DNA from: Paenisporosarcina sp. FSL H8-0542
Lineage (GTDB): Bacteria > Bacillota > Bacilli > Bacillales_A > Planococcaceae
Assembly: GCF_038632915.1 (NCBI RefSeq)
Contig: NZ_CP152050.1
Location: forward strand, 1,457,001 to 1,521,000
DNA length: 64,000 bases
Direction: 5' to 3'
Each line of letters starts with the position of its first letter. Positions within the stretch are counted from its first letter, which is position 1. Below are positions 5,442 to 63,645 of the stretch, piece after piece. A model generated the notes under the pieces. The model was not told the DNA's origin, ran no database searches, and saw only the letters and a program-made list of their open reading frames with translations. Position numbers and translations under genes: made by a program.

Positions 5442-5546
5442 CGCGAATAGAACTGTTTAATACGAGAATAGAAACGCTTAAAGCGCGAATAAACCACGGA
5501 GTATCGCGAATAGAAGACCCAAAACCGCGAATAGTCAATATTCGAC
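5442..5546. repeat. Array of five 21-bp-phased CGCGAATAG repeats
   Basis: Copies of CGCGAATAG(A) begin at 5442, 5463, 5484, 5505 and 5526, an exact 21-bp step every time. The roughly 9-bp core is conserved (variants CGAGAATAG, CGCGAATAA) and the 12-bp spacers are not. Together with the terminator at 5353 it fills the 397-bp rsmE-deoC gap. The reverse strand reads open as repeated FYSR because 21 is a multiple of three; this is not taken to be a gene. Related arrays occur at 6840, 12596 and 30734. Confidence 0.8.
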
Positions 5547-11353: not shown

Positions 11354-12316
11354 ATGCAGGAAGAACATTATACGGAATTACACGTTCAAGATCCAAATGA
11401 AGCCATCTTACTGCTAGGAATTTCTGATGGCAATATGAAATTGATTGAACAAGAACTTGGCGTACAGGTCATTACCCGAGGCGAAGCCATTCGTCTAGTA
11501 GGGGATGTCGAAAAACGTGCAATTGCTAAACAACTAATTGAACAATTATTAAAAGTTATTAAAAAAGGAATAAATATTAATCAACGTGACGTAAGTACAG
11601 CTATAGAAATGAGTACAGCTGGGACTTTAGAGTATTACGCGGAGTTGTACGATGAAGAAATTGCCCGTAATGTCAAAGGGAAAGCGATACGTGCCAAAAC
11701 AATAGGTCAGCGTGAATATATTCATGCGATTCGTCACAAAGATTTGGTGTTTTGTATTGGACCTGCTGGTACGGGAAAAACATATCTGGCTGTTGTTCTT
11801 GCAACACAAGCGTTAAAAAACGGTCATGTAAAACGTATCATTTTGACTCGTCCTGCTGTTGAAGCAGGGGAGAGCTTAGGGTTCTTACCTGGCGACTTGA
11901 AAGAGAAAGTAGATCCTTATTTACGTCCTTTGTACGATGCACTTCATGACGTACTGGGAACGGAGCAAACGACGCGCTTTTTGGAAAGAGGAACGATAGA
12001 AATTGCACCTCTTGCTTATATGCGTGGACGTACACTCGATGATGCATTTGTCATTTTAGATGAGGCTCAAAATACGACGAAAGCTCAAATGAAAATGTTT
12101 TTAACACGACTGGGCTTCGGCTCGAAAATGGTGATCACTGGAGACAAAACGCAAATCGATTTACCGCGTGGTGCAGAGTCCGGACTGAAAGTTGCCGAGA
12201 AGATTTTGCACAATGTCAGTGGCATCCACTTCCAGATGCTCGAGCAAGGAGACGTTGTCCGTCATCCACTCGTCGCAAAAATTATTCATGCATACGAAGA
12301 ACAGCAGCCTGAATAG
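11354..12316 (+). CDS. phoH: PhoH-like ATPase
   Basis: 320 aa. The N-terminal KH-like segment is followed by the PhoH ATPase core with Walker A (IGPAGTGKTYLA), the TRPAVEAGESLGFLPGD block and Walker B (AFVILDEAQNT), then the sensor segment MVITGDKTQID. The family is a cytoplasmic P-loop NTPase linked with RNA metabolism and often adjacent to ybeY, as nearly here. It is the last gene of the yqfC-yqfD-phoH unit; a terminator overlaps its end. Confidence 0.95.
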   Translation: MQEEHYTELHVQDPNEAILLLGISDGNMKLIEQELGVQVITRGEAIRLVGDVEKRAIAKQLIEQLLKVIKKGININQRDVSTAIEMSTAGTLEYYAELYDEEIARNVKGKAIRAKTIGQREYIHAIRHKDLVFCIGPAGTGKTYLAVVLATQALKNGHVKRIILTRPAVEAGESLGFLPGDLKEKVDPYLRPLYDALHDVLGTEQTTRFLERGTIEIAPLAYMRGRTLDDAFVILDEAQNTTKAQMKMFLTRLGFGSKMVITGDKTQIDLPRGAESGLKVAEKILHNVSGIHFQMLEQGDVVRHPLVAKIIHAYEEQQPE

Positions 12317-12331
12317 GGCTGCTGTTCTTTT
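12299..12331 (+). terminator. Terminator at the end of phoH
   Basis: Perfect 11-bp stem (GAACAGCAGCC / GGCTGCTGTTC), 7-nt loop, T tail. The 5' arm is inside the last codons of phoH. Confidence 0.85.
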
Positions 12332-12374: not shown

Positions 12375-12539
12375 CTTTCGTTAGACTCAAAATCTGCATG
12401 AGCCAGCCATCAAGAATGAAAACCACATTCCGTTTTTTGTTACGTACACTTGCGCTAGCAGCATGCTCCGAATGAGTCCGAAAGTATGAAAACCAGATAC
12501 TTGTAGGACTACCGCTTCAGCTCTTGAGGATTGGCTGGG
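12375..12539. other. Structured non-coding element with crossed inverted repeats
   Basis: Arm A CTTTCG-tta-GACTCA (12377-12390) is complementary to A' TGAGTCCGAAAG (about 12473). Arm B CCAGCCATCAAGA (about 12403) is complementary, with two gaps, to B' TCTTGAGGATTGGCTGG (about 12522). The order A-B-A'-B' is that of a pseudoknot. Two small hairpins share the loop GAAAACCA: GAATG/CATTC and AAGTAT/ATACTT, with different stems. No ORF explains it and I recognise no named RNA family. Confidence 0.4.
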
Positions 12540-12595: not shown

Positions 12596-12726
12596 TGTCC
12601 ACTCGCAAGAGGTTATTGACCAGTCATGCTGATTACTGACCATTTATCACAATTTTTGTCCATTCAGCAATAGTTATCGTCCATTCGAAAACACTTTCTG
12701 TCCATTCGCCTGAACACGGACACTCA
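12596..12726. repeat. Seven-copy ~21-bp-phased TGTCCATTCG repeat array
   Basis: Copies begin at 12596, 12617, 12637, 12657, 12678, 12699 and, weakly, 12717: TGTCCACTCG, TGACCAGTCA, TGACCATTTA, TGTCCATTCA, CGTCCATTCG, TGTCCATTCG, CGGACACTCA. Steps are 21, 20, 20, 21, 21 and 18 bp. The spacers are unrelated to each other. It occupies the middle of the 652-bp phoH-pgpH gap; after it only an imperfect hairpin near 12769-12790 and AT-rich DNA were seen. Confidence 0.75.
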
Positions 12727-12968
12727 GTCCTTACCAGAAACACATACATACAAAAAAACCTGGCATTTCATTCGATGTCAGATTTTTAAGCTGATTTGAA
12801 AAATGAGTCGTGCGCAAATACATTCTTTCATTTCTATTCAATCAACTAGTCTACGAATCTATGAATGTGCAGTGTTGTTGCATTACGCAATTCATAAATC
12901 TTTTACAATTGTCGGTGTAATGATAGAAAATTCTTGATATGATAGTAGGTAGAAGATGGGGTGATGCA

Positions 12969-15074
12969 GTGAATAGCTGGATTAATAAAATGCAGTCACT
13001 AGTGGGCTACCGAACATTTACCGTTTTAACGATTGTGATAACAGGTTTACTCCTTTTTTTAATTCTCGTAAACGGAGTTAGACCAGAGAAATATGATATA
13101 AAAGAATTTCACTTATCGAAAGATACAATTCGCTCCATAAAAACAGTTGAAGATCCTGTGAAGACTGAAGAAGAACGTCAAAGAGCAGCTTCAGAGGTTA
13201 CAAGTGTTTATCAATTCTCCGAGGAAATTGGCGAAAATCGTGCAGCAATTGTTACGTCCGTAATTGATTATGTTCTGGAAGAAAAAGCAGAATCAGTTAA
13301 ATCGGCTACGCCAATAGAACAACAAGTAAGTAACTTGAAGGAAAACCTTAATGTGCTAGAAACTGATGGGGAAGGAATTCGCTTTACCGATGATGCCCTG
13401 GTTTCCTTACTGTTATTGGAGAATGAGTCCTTAATAACTTTAAGAGATTCTCTAACTGCTTCAGTACGCGATATTATGAGTAAGCCGATTCGCACTGAGC
13501 AAGTAGCCAATGCCAAAAATGAAATTGAACGAAGCATTCGGGAAAATTTGCAGATACCAGAAAGTGTTCTGCCCACAGCTGTGTTAATTGGACGCTACAG
13601 CATCACTGTAAATGAAACGTTAAATGAGGAACTGACTCAGGCCCGAATCGAGCAGGCGCGAGCGAGTATTGAGCCGACCAGAATTCTTCAAGGGCAAGTA
13701 ATTGTTCAGGAAGGTCAAATCATCGATCGGGAAGTGTATCGACAACTTAAACTTCTGGGAATGTTAACGAATCAATCGTCATTGGAACCGATTTTGGGGC
13801 TGATTCTCTTTATTTCACTTTGTATGTGGCTTGTACATATGCAAATGGCAAAATGGCGTACGAATAAAGAAGAACGGCAACGGGCACTTCTTGTTGGAAT
13901 GCTGATTTTTATTTTGTCTGTCATCGGAATGAAATTAATCAGTTTGGTATCAGACAATTTTGACGTGACAATTGCCTTTTTATTCCCCACTGCATTAGCT
14001 CCAATGCTGGTACGTTCATTAATAAATGAACGCTTTGCCGTATTAATGGCATTTTTGACGGCAGCGGTCGCAGGTCTAGTGTTCCAGGAAGGGTATTCTG
14101 CTGTACTTCAGATGGAAATTGCCCTATATATTTTATTCGGTGGATTTGCAGGTTTATACGTGATTCAAGGTGCTGAAAAACGGTCACACTTACTTCAGAC
14201 GAGTTTAAATGTAGCTGTTGTCAATTTCATTTTTATGGCATTTTATTTACTAATGACTCAATCAGACTATGGGGTTAGTGAATTGCTGTTTTACGGTATT
14301 GCTGCACTCACCTCTGGTCTTTTGTCCGGCGCTTTGACCATTGGCTTATTACCGTTCTTTGAATCAGCTTTCGGATTAATTTCCACAATGAAACTGATCG
14401 AACTCTCAAATCCGAATCATCCATTGCTGAAAAAAATCTTAACTGAAACACCAGGAACGTATCATCATAGTGTAATGGTCGCAAATCTGGCTGATGCAGC
14501 CTGTGAATCAATTGGTGCAGATGGATTATTAGCACGAGTAGGCTGTTACTATCATGATATCGGAAAAACAAAACGACCAGGATTTTTTATAGAAAATCAA
14601 ATGAGTCATGCCAACCCTCATGATGCACTTCCTCCAGAAACCAGTAGGGACATCATTTTATCCCATGGTAGTGATGGAGCAAAATTATTGCAAAAGCACA
14701 AAATGCCAAAAGAAATTATTGATATTGCTGAACAACATCATGGGACAAGTTTATTAAAATATTTTTATTTCAAAGCAAAAGAGGAAGGGCAGCCCGTAAA
14801 CGAAGAAGATTATCGTTATGCAGGGCCTAAACCTCAGAAAAAAGAGACAGCTATTATTTCCATTGCAGATAGTGTGGAGGCTGCCGTCCGTTCAATGAAG
14901 CATCCTACAGCAGAAAAAATACAGGAAATTGTACATTCCATTATCAAAGACCGATTACATGATGGGCAATTCGATGAATGTGATTTAACACTTAAAGAAC
15001 TTAAAACCGTCGAACGCGTTCTGTGTGAAACTTTGAATGGTATATTCCATTCTCGAATTGAATACCCACAATAA
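12969..15074 (+). CDS. pgpH: Cyclic-di-AMP phosphodiesterase PgpH (7TMR-HD family)
   Basis: 701 aa from GTG 12969, which follows GGGGTGAT; the frame extends 30 bases further to an ATG without a ribosome site. An N-terminal helix is followed by an extracytoplasmic 7TMR-HDED domain (residues ~40-260) and seven membrane segments (~270-470). A cytoplasmic HD hydrolase domain completes it, with HHSVMVANLADAA, CYYHDIGKTKRP and EQHHGTSLLKYFY. These enzymes degrade c-di-AMP to pApA and so tune potassium and osmotic balance. It heads the pgpH-ybeY-dgkA-cdd-era-recO run. Confidence 0.94.
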   Translation: MNSWINKMQSLVGYRTFTVLTIVITGLLLFLILVNGVRPEKYDIKEFHLSKDTIRSIKTVEDPVKTEEERQRAASEVTSVYQFSEEIGENRAAIVTSVIDYVLEEKAESVKSATPIEQQVSNLKENLNVLETDGEGIRFTDDALVSLLLLENESLITLRDSLTASVRDIMSKPIRTEQVANAKNEIERSIRENLQIPESVLPTAVLIGRYSITVNETLNEELTQARIEQARASIEPTRILQGQVIVQEGQIIDREVYRQLKLLGMLTNQSSLEPILGLILFISLCMWLVHMQMAKWRTNKEERQRALLVGMLIFILSVIGMKLISLVSDNFDVTIAFLFPTALAPMLVRSLINERFAVLMAFLTAAVAGLVFQEGYSAVLQMEIALYILFGGFAGLYVIQGAEKRSHLLQTSLNVAVVNFIFMAFYLLMTQSDYGVSELLFYGIAALTSGLLSGALTIGLLPFFESAFGLISTMKLIELSNPNHPLLKKILTETPGTYHHSVMVANLADAACESIGADGLLARVGCYYHDIGKTKRPGFFIENQMSHANPHDALPPETSRDIILSHGSDGAKLLQKHKMPKEIIDIAEQHHGTSLLKYFYFKAKEEGQPVNEEDYRYAGPKPQKKETAIISIADSVEAAVRSMKHPTAEKIQEIVHSIIKDRLHDGQFDECDLTLKELKTVERVLCETLNGIFHSRIEYPQ

Positions 15075-30733: not shown

Positions 30734-30815
30734 CGTGAATAGAATACAAAAGTGCACGAATAGAAAGTGTGAAATTCACAATACCGCGAAAAGGACCTCT
30801 GAAACCGCGAATAGA
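30734..30815. repeat. 21-bp-phased CGCGAATAG repeat array with a 9-bp slip
   Basis: Cores CGTGAATAG (30734), CACGAATAG (30755), CGCGAAAAG (30785) and CGCGAATAG (30806). Steps are 21, 30 and 21 bp; a degenerate TCACAATAC stands at 30776, exactly in the first register. Same family as the array at 5442. It lies between the cccA terminator and another terminator-like stem at 30832. Confidence 0.7.
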
Positions 30816-33804: not shown

Positions 33805-34359
33805 TCAAAAGGGTGGCTGGAAAATACGTGGTTGTGAAGCTCCACCAAGGCGGGGGGCAGCGGATGCAACATTACGGACAGCGCTGGCAGTGGCCGTAGC
33901 GTCAGGCATATTTTGAAAACCTCTGTACATTCTCCATAATGCCGGTATGTTTTGGACCATAGGTGCAACTTGTTGGACCATAGGTGTCAGTTTCTGAGCT
34001 GTGTTCAAGAAACGGTCAGCGGTTTCCATGAACTGCTCAACACGGTTCGTTCCCTGTGGTAATCCACCATTTCCTAATGCATTCCCAATACCACCTAAAG
34101 GCGATTGGGATCTATTAGCATTACCTAAGGTATTCCCTAAACCACCAAAAGGCGATTGGGATGGATTATCATTACCAAAGGCATTCCCAAAACCACCAAA
34201 AGGCGCTTGGGATGGATTATCATTACCAAAGGCATTCCCTAAACCACCAAAAGGCATTTGGGTTGGACTTCCACCAGAAAAGCTTTGCGGCATCGAGTGC
34301 CTCGGTGAAACATTCGGCATTTGTGATTGTGCGAATGGATAAAAAGATTGATAACGCAT
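33805..34359 (-). CDS. yqfQ: YqfQ/VrrA-like Gly/Asn/Pro-rich repeat protein
   Basis: 184 aa from ATG 34359, after AAAGGAGG; 15 upstream in-frame codons lack a ribosome site. The N-terminal MRYQSFYPFAQSQMP is followed by about four tandem 17-residue repeats of the type PFGGLGNAFGNDNPSQS (51-bp DNA repeat, roughly 34065-34265). A C-terminal helical domain follows (RVEQFMETADRFLNTAQKL ... ALWRMYRGFQNM). B. anthracis VrrA, the orthologue by position, also has a variable repeat tract. Molecular role unknown. Confidence 0.8.
   Translation of the reverse strand: MRYQSFYPFAQSQMPNVSPRHSMPQSFSGGSPTQMPFGGLGNAFGNDNPSQAPFGGFGNAFGNDNPSQSPFGGLGNTLGNANRSQSPLGGIGNALGNGGLPQGTNRVEQFMETADRFLNTAQKLTPMVQQVAPMVQNIPALWRMYRGFQNMPDATATASAVRNVASAAPRLGGASQPRIFQPPF
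34065..34265 (-). repeat. 51-bp in-frame minisatellite in yqfQ
   Basis: About four imperfect copies of a 51-bp unit encode the 17-residue Gly/Asn/Pro/Ser repeat. The two central copies are nearly identical at DNA level, as in an actively expanding/contracting tract. Confidence 0.75.
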
Positions 34360-63351: not shown

Positions 63352-63469
63352 AGAGTGTAATAAGAAAATAGATTGCGCTTACTTTGAATCAATGTTAGGA
63401 TATAGACGAAGCGGTACACGCTTTTGTTCATTGATTTCTTAATATACCAAAACGCATGTTTTGGGCGGA

Positions 63470-63645
63470 TGAATATACGGGGAGAGAACGCGCCAGTCGC
63501 GTCGCCGAAGGAGCAAGTAGAAGCTACGAATCTCTCAGGTAAAAAAGACTCGTATAGGACGCATCTCTGGAGAATGCTATTACACTTCATAGCTACCAAA
63601 GAGGAAAGCCGATTTCAGGTAAACTTTCAGGTGCCAGGACAGAGA
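63470..63645 (+). promoter_or_regulatory. Tandem glycine riboswitch
   Basis: First aptamer: GGGGAGAGAACG, GCGCCAGTCGCGTCGCCGAA, GGAGCAAG, CTCTCAGGTAAAAAAGACTC, and GGACGCATCTCTGGAG. Second aptamer: ACCAAAGAGGAAAGCCG, TTTCAGGTAAACTTTCAGGT, GCCAGGACAGAG. These are the conserved cores of gcvT-type aptamers joined by a short linker. It lies directly upstream of gcvT and should activate it when glycine is high. The remaining ~100 bp on each side hold only AT-rich DNA and the terminator. Confidence 0.95.

Follow-up and report, generated by a model that had tools for sequence, protein, structure and literature searches.

Plasmid iterons, i.e. phased direct repeats of approximately 20 bp with a conserved core, are bound by Rep initiators, and in TIGR-Tas arrays short repeats alternate with spacers of approximately 9 nt at a period of 36, the Nop domain being the mark of the Tas proteins. 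REP/BIME elements are marked by the binding of gyrase or IHF. REP elements, as presented in PMC3733652, are intergenic, lie mainly between unidirectional and convergent ORFs and are found downstream of genes. According to PMC2817692 they are imperfect palindromes whose orientation alternates in BIMEs, and a boundary role, in which read-through is limited or supercoils are absorbed, is proposed for REP/BIME in both accounts (PMC3733652, PMC2817692). The STAR elements of staphylococci are described as interspersed intergenic direct repeats that combine a 14-bp motif, T(G/A/T)TGTTG(G/T)GGCCC(C/A), with locus-specific spacers of at least 40 bp; their unit number is strain-variable, and function, origin and spread are given as unknown (PMC3532100). 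Here we report intergenic arrays of short direct repeats that recur at two turns of the DNA helix, of which no description was present among the matches listed in the open PMC literature (subscription papers are outside its scope).

The window, i.e. the whole stretch of 64,000 nucleotides that was analysed, corresponds to G000:C1:1457001-1521000 of a 3.63-Mb Paenisporosarcina genome. The first-pass annotation had listed four arrays in it; those at 12596, at 5442 and, in degenerate form, at 30734-30815 were recovered, and the fourth was not found in the window. The features that we refer to are as follows.

5442..5535, + strand: five-unit array with the core CGCGAATAGA, spaced at exactly 21 bp (0/2000 shuffles)
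11354..12316, + strand: phoH, the upstream gene (PF02562, E 6.2e-97)
12300..12331, + strand: intrinsic terminator of phoH, a hairpin followed by a T run, identified by eye approximately 265 bp ahead of the array
12596..12708, + strand: six-unit array with the core TGTCCATTCG and steps of 21, 20, 20, 21 and 21 bp (unit matches, 0/2000 shuffles)
12657..12708, + strand: last three units, the best conserved; a 21-bp unit here is absent from the conspecific HGH0030 (alignments)
12939..15074, + strand: downstream gene of the 7TM-HD type, which we take to be yqfF (PF07697, PF07698, PF01966)
30734..30815, + strand: degenerate CGYGAATAGA array with steps of 21, 30 and 21, flanked by a cytochrome gene and trmK

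The units between phoH and yqfF start at 12596, 12617, 12637, 12657, 12678 and 12699 and match TGTCCATTCG at 9, 7, 7, 9, 9 and 10 out of 10 positions, respectively. The longest chain in this array (8-mers with at most one mismatch, 20-21 bp apart) has five units; when the 622-bp intergenic region was shuffled 2000 times with dinucleotides preserved, this length was never reached and the maximum was three. Seven units at steps of 20 and 21 bp had been annotated here; the existence of the array and its steps hold for six units, and the proposed seventh at 12717 (CGGACACTCA) matches at 5/10 positions, is 18 bp away from the sixth and is not supported. Nor is it the longest of its family, as had been suggested, given that another six-unit array (TGTCCATTC) is present at 787.8 kb in G000 and that relatives have arrays of up to 34 units. 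The five units at exactly 21 bp in the 5442 array were confirmed (0/2000 shuffles). A common family comprising TGTCCATTCG and TTCTATTCGCG as subtypes is plausible, as both share TC-Y-ATTCG and occur together in the P. quisquiliarum genome (G030), but no more than plausible, because the period is common to many motifs that are clearly unrelated. The phoH-yqfF array is a degenerate example of a larger phenomenon.

Other repeats and RNA features were also noted in the window. Directly upstream of the array, positions 12443-12529 hold a different dispersed repeat of approximately 70-100 bp that contains CGTACACTTGCGCTAGC close to its beginning; matches of 71-82% identity are present in nine other stretches of the same genome, one of them only 34 bp, and the copy at L013 likewise adjoins a TGTCCATTC array. 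At 34068-34267 a 51-bp unit is tandemly repeated 3.9 times (88% matches) within a predicted gene of 199 aa on the minus strand. None of the arrays matched Rfam, the sole hit in the window at gathering score being a glycine riboswitch aptamer at 63469-63561 on the + strand.

In the genome to which the window belongs, TGTCCATTCG has 19 sites compared to three for its reversed control. Among the 18 of these 19 exact sites that could be placed, 15 are within predicted genes, 14 of them without a phased neighbour, and the three intergenic sites have one, five and five phased neighbours. Enrichment of TGTCCATTCG between genes is rejected, since 15/18 sites are genic and coding DNA makes up 86% of the sequence. 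The first-pass annotation had named equal occurrence at random positions within genes as evidence against the array; this applies to the 10-mer alone, which is mostly genic, while phased neighbours accompany the intergenic sites. Phase, not the 10-mer, is the distinguishing feature. We therefore used a motif-free scan for 8-mers recurring at a fixed lag (lags 10 to 45, at most one mismatch); only direct repeats are sought in this way and arrays of alternating orientation would therefore escape detection. Gene calls were made with a hexamer gene finder built here and not taken from annotation. Chains in N runs were removed from the 129-chain scan and from the placement, terminator and 71-array spacer analyses described below; chains in well-scoring genes and repeats with the same first 60 bases were removed from the 129-chain and 71-array sets, which also leave out 79 named loci, the IMG/VR loci and the GGAGCAACT loci of G030.

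In a 2.46-Mb sample of stretches from the own genome and from relatives, which is partly array-selected and includes overlapping stretches, 129 chains of at least four units were detected, some of which are short AT-rich or coding chains and not arrays (e.g. window 52306). With steps of 17-25 bp allowed, 563 of their 609 steps are 20 or 21 bp (272 and 291, respectively), so the helical phasing proposed for the phoH-yqfF array is strongly supported and is wider than claimed. In the 257 kb around arrays of relatives, chains of at least four units numbered 32 at lag 21 and one at lag 42, with no others between lags 10 and 45, and 462 kb of the own genome gave four at lag 21 and at most one at any other; these stretches had mostly been picked for one motif, and many of the chains found had other motifs. 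Unselected samples consisted of twenty spread-out 20-kb stretches (400 kb) each from the own genome and from G095, a member of the same family with a GC content of 58%. For the own genome, two intergenic chains of at least three units were present at lag 21 vs 0-1 elsewhere, and no intergenic chain of at least four units at lag 20 or 21 (one at 18); the arrays are sparse there. For G095, intergenic chains of at least four units numbered 32 at lag 21, eight at lag 20, five at 40, two at 42 and zero at other lags between 12 and 45, and its coding DNA had no peak at 20/21 bp in the same 400 kb.

In the 400 unselected kb of G095, 43 arrays of at least four units were listed, five of them overlapping predicted genes and two being copies of a single array. 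Grouping by eye gave approximately 16 motif families in this genome. Examples are CTTTAGTTTCG, TTCTATCTATTCG, CGAGTGAGACGC, TGTTAAGCAAA, TTATCTTTATC, ACGCAACGTTTC and TAATCGTTCGATTC at 21 bp and TTGCAATTAG, TTCGGAGTATGG and TTGAAATATGG at 20 bp. The density of arrays in this genome is possibly inflated because of 7% contamination and local tandem duplications resembling assembly artefacts; the tandem-duplicated gene pieces at L025, L146, L147, L153 and L157 are probably such artefacts. Small samples of one or two stretches gave an eight-unit array at 20 bp in G085 and three-unit chains at 20-21 bp in G003, G228 and G091; those of G109 held weak AT-rich chains only, and those of G086, G031 and G148 and the new stretches of G077 no arrays outside genes. 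Arrays at 20 bp were seen in G229 and G216 in stretches placed on known TGCAATTA sites. Pairs of TGCAATTA number 112 in G095, 17 in G229, seven in G228 and three in G216, while most of the 261 genomes searched have few or none, and for the 40-bp form of this search the reversed control gave zero. Two other reversed controls perhaps represent further phased motif families, i.e. ATTAACGT N12-13 ATTAACGT with 19+33 matches in G095 and CTTAYCT N12-14 CTTAYCT with 27+31 matches in G012.

Among the 79 named loci, six chains of at least four units were at lag 21 vs at most one at any other lag, while three-unit chains were equally common at lags 12, 27 and 21. The six comprise the conspecific L050, Gottfriedia and nearby Bacillus sp. 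(L071, L073 and L108), Sutcliffiella horikoshii (L072) and L087, the chain of which looks coding. The phenomenon probably extends past Planococcaceae, because lag-21 chains are present in Gottfriedia, Bacillus sp. and Sutcliffiella horikoshii. In Gottfriedia and relatives, four of ten records, among the matches listed, have an array of approximately 6-12 units at one intergenic site (by eye), and the other six have none at that site by the pattern used. A viral origin was rejected on the basis of IMG/VR scans, in which two of three motif pairs had no match and the third matched two contigs, one pair in each.

The anatomy of the units was analysed for 12 TTGCAATTA arrays (116 units), where positions 1-10 are nearly invariant (1.67-2.00 bits), positions 13-17 are nearly random (0.08-0.35 bits) and position 19 is conserved (1.87 bits); conservation of position 19 and of position 10 (1.80 bits) is not built in, because both are outside the search core (positions 1-9). 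For 71 arrays of at least five evenly spaced units (43 at 21 bp and 28 at 20 bp, with mixed spacings and arrays under five units dropped) core identity is 0.94, an enrichment that is partly built in because the scan demands an 8-mer match. Neighbouring spacers have an identity of 0.52, which rises to 0.66 at a distance of two units and falls back to 0.51 at three; the two-unit value exceeds that of neighbours in 53 of the 71 arrays (p=3.5e-7, arrays taken as independent). Since spacers are more alike two units apart than one, the arrays tend towards rows of 40-42 bp dimers with alternating A/B spacers, and in the GGAGCAACT arrays of G030 the steps alternate between 20 and 21 bp together with the A and B spacers. 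A coding repeat, for which seven codons would give 21 bp, is rejected because 28 of the 71 arrays belong to 20-bp families and the 20/21 alternation of one family breaks the frame.

That the core is kept, the spacer drifts and the step is two turns and rarely anything else suggests proteins positioned side by side on one face of the helix. The main rival to such arrays of binding sites is a selfish or tolerated family of interspersed repeats, which would spread by copying, expand through tandem duplications, 20-21 or 40-42 bp at a time, survive where harmless (3' ends, not promoters) and have the core kept by the copying enzyme and not for the host; we regard this as possible, if somewhat unlikely. 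The ABAB spacers fit tandem duplication of dimers, but neutral tandem duplication fails to explain why unrelated motifs have a common period of 20/21 bp and why core and spacer identity differ (0.94 vs 0.52). A/B spacers of similar size that alternate would also agree with a guide-RNA array of the TIGR-Tas type. This is hardly conceivable given that the Nop domain was detected in 0/10 array genomes (and in four archaeal controls), that the period is 40-42 and not 36, and that the arrays are many and dispersed.

Comparison of related genomes provides insight into how the arrays change. In the conspecific HGH0030 (L050/G011), whose YqfF is 100% identical to the one neighbouring the array in the window, the phoH-yqfF array is one unit shorter with a clean 21-bp gap, and the step corresponding to 12617-12637 is 21 instead of 20; because of the latter, the 20-bp step in the window is probably due to a 1-bp deletion. 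In G030 the CGCGAATAGA motif persists at the orthologous 30.7-kb site as six units at 21 bp with changed spacers, the 5.4-kb site holds a remnant of an array (by eye), and the phoH-yqfF site has five GGAGCAACT units where the window has TGTCCATTCG. The GGAGCAACT motif is present at 11 loci in G030, and its strict pair pattern in 0/397 other class-wide genomes, the own genome and one conspecific included. Six of these 11 loci are within approximately 155 kb of contig C22, which may reflect local spread or a regional function. The arrays may conceivably be chromosomal domain addresses, for which the clustering of GGAGCAACT in G030 speaks and against which the scattering of the G095 motif families over contigs does. 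Within the same genus, 60 kb around the phoH-yqfF region in each of G047, G072 and G061 revealed no array of this kind. Flanks of TTGCAATTA arrays include one site that is orthologous between species, beside a minD-like gene (G228/G229).

Several of these observations agree with selfish repeats. Families are sporadic, with GGAGCAACTT pairs in 1/398 class genomes (G030, at 11 loci) and TGCAATTA pairs scarce or missing in most of 261, conspecific genomes differ by a whole unit, and the fast turnover of motifs favours this explanation; replacement of one motif by another at a single site would also be odd for a dedicated regulator. On the other hand, no enzyme gene framed by arrays of its own was seen among the flanks examined, and Y1_Tnp (PF01797, the RAYT superfamily), detected in 8 of 16 genomes searched (among them G030, G085, G228 and G229), is absent from G000, G011, G091, G095, G077 and G216, as well as from G003 and G086.

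The location of the arrays relative to genes was determined for those with at least four units in intergenic regions of at least 100 bp, i.e. 39 of the 43 unselected G095 arrays. None of the 39 is between divergent genes (p=4e-5), where divergent regions account for 22.8% of the intergenic bp counted, and this is true also for 0/51 when the selected stretches are included (p=1e-6); with a looser three-unit rule 2/45 divergent regions have an array. For convergent regions of at least 100 bp the corresponding numbers are 14/26 unselected and 17/29 with the selected stretches, and yet arrays that occupy 14 of 26 such regions are without a description among the literature matches listed. In G077, 0/9 arrays are divergent, which is not significant (p=0.11), and the own genome, with one of five, has no visible bias. 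Over several genomes the divergent clusters by family are two for TTGCAATTAG, two for GGAGCAACT, one for CGAGTGAG and one for ACCTGGA. Regions with an array are also longer than those without (medians of 210 vs 109 bp for convergent and 333 vs 147 bp for tandem genes), in line with selfish repeats.

Arrays are located both before and beyond terminators, some between stop codon and terminator. Terminators were predicted in 11/17 convergent G095 regions with an array vs 10/12 without, and in 10/26 vs 28/71 tandem regions; these counts do not support the arrays as a substitute for terminators. Most families occur in both orientations and some are biased: TTGCAATTAG has 14 sense and 2 antisense cases (orthologous pairs among them), CGYGAATAGA in Paenisporosarcina has 10/10 tandem clusters in sense (a total that includes one cluster within a predicted ORF and two with a single hit; 5/5 by a stricter rule), and the GAATAGATAGAA family in G095/G077 has two sense and eight antisense. 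An element that acts at the RNA level, transcribed as part of a leader or 3' UTR and recognised by a small RNA or an RNA-binding protein, would account for the arrays between stop codon and terminator and for the sense bias of TTGCAATTAG and CGYGAATAGA, and the polarity of TTGCAATTAG with transcription fits such a role as well. We nevertheless find it quite improbable, considering that other arrays are beyond the terminator of the neighbouring gene, that several families have both orientations with GAATAGATAGAA leaning towards antisense, and that single-stranded RNA offers no obvious use for a two-turn period.

The explanation that we tentatively prefer, and for which we judge the chances to be nearly balanced, is that the arrays are helically phased arrays of binding sites on double-stranded DNA near the 3' ends of genes, with a boundary role. 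A sequence-specific protein would contact a core of approximately 9-14 bp every 20 or 21 bp, different motif families probably corresponding to different proteins or specificities. Successive copies, on the same face of the helix, would stack into a head-to-tail nucleoprotein filament, and because the A/B spacers alternate, the repeating assembly may cover two cores (40-42 bp). At gene 3' ends and between convergent genes the arrays would then most likely serve as boundary elements, limiting read-through or absorbing the supercoils generated by transcription, as suggested by their presence where positive supercoils gather and read-through matters. Against the binding-site explanation, no binding protein was found and the arrays are sparse in the own genome. 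The first-pass annotation had expected co-occurrence with a family of DNA-binding proteins, for which the limited tests made gave no candidate: a search for paralogues as cognate proteins among 477 predicted proteins (approximately 15% of G095) revealed nothing convincing and no multi-copy DNA-binding family standing out, and the flanks of the TTGCAATTA arrays have no candidate gene in common.

If the arrays do bind protein, Firmicutes would have in them a new type of boundary element. Moreover, one architecture with many motifs and fast turnover would be an unusually clean natural experiment on how DNA-binding specificity changes. A wider proposal, frankly speculative and unlikely to hold in full, is that Bacillales carry undescribed chromosome-organising elements, i.e. 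motif-diverse arrays of two-core dimers (40-42 bp) on which diversified DNA-binding proteins would form polar filaments at 3' ends and acquire new specificities within the time that separates sister species.

Finally, we compared the arrays with the known systems. Like plasmid iterons they are phased direct repeats of approximately 20 bp, but they are chromosomal and dispersed over many loci. That they are decoys or origins mimicking iterons bound by Rep initiators would be in keeping with this likeness and with the presence of Rep3_N in G228 and G229; it is very improbable, as Rep3_N is absent from the other eight of ten array genomes (G095 and G000 included) and many of the dispersed sites adjoin apparent housekeeping genes. 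With REP/BIME, as far as these are characterised in the two accounts cited above, the arrays share that they are intergenic, composite, regularly spaced, of high copy number and, in G095, rarely between divergent genes (0/51), a bias that is not visible in the sparse own genome (1/5). They differ in being direct repeats at a two-turn period with many non-palindromic cores (e.g. CGCGAATAGA, GGAGCAACT and TGTTAAGCAAA), so that neither palindromes nor alternating orientation characterise them, and while REP are tied to RAYT, G095, the densest array genome seen, lacks the Y1 transposase superfamily. The likeness to STAR, in terms of the features given for it in PMC3532100, lies in intergenic direct repeats with spacers that differ by locus and a variable number of units. 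STAR has a single GC-rich motif with spacers of at least 40 bp, and the arrays differ from it in both core and step (20-21 bp): many motifs share one two-turn period.
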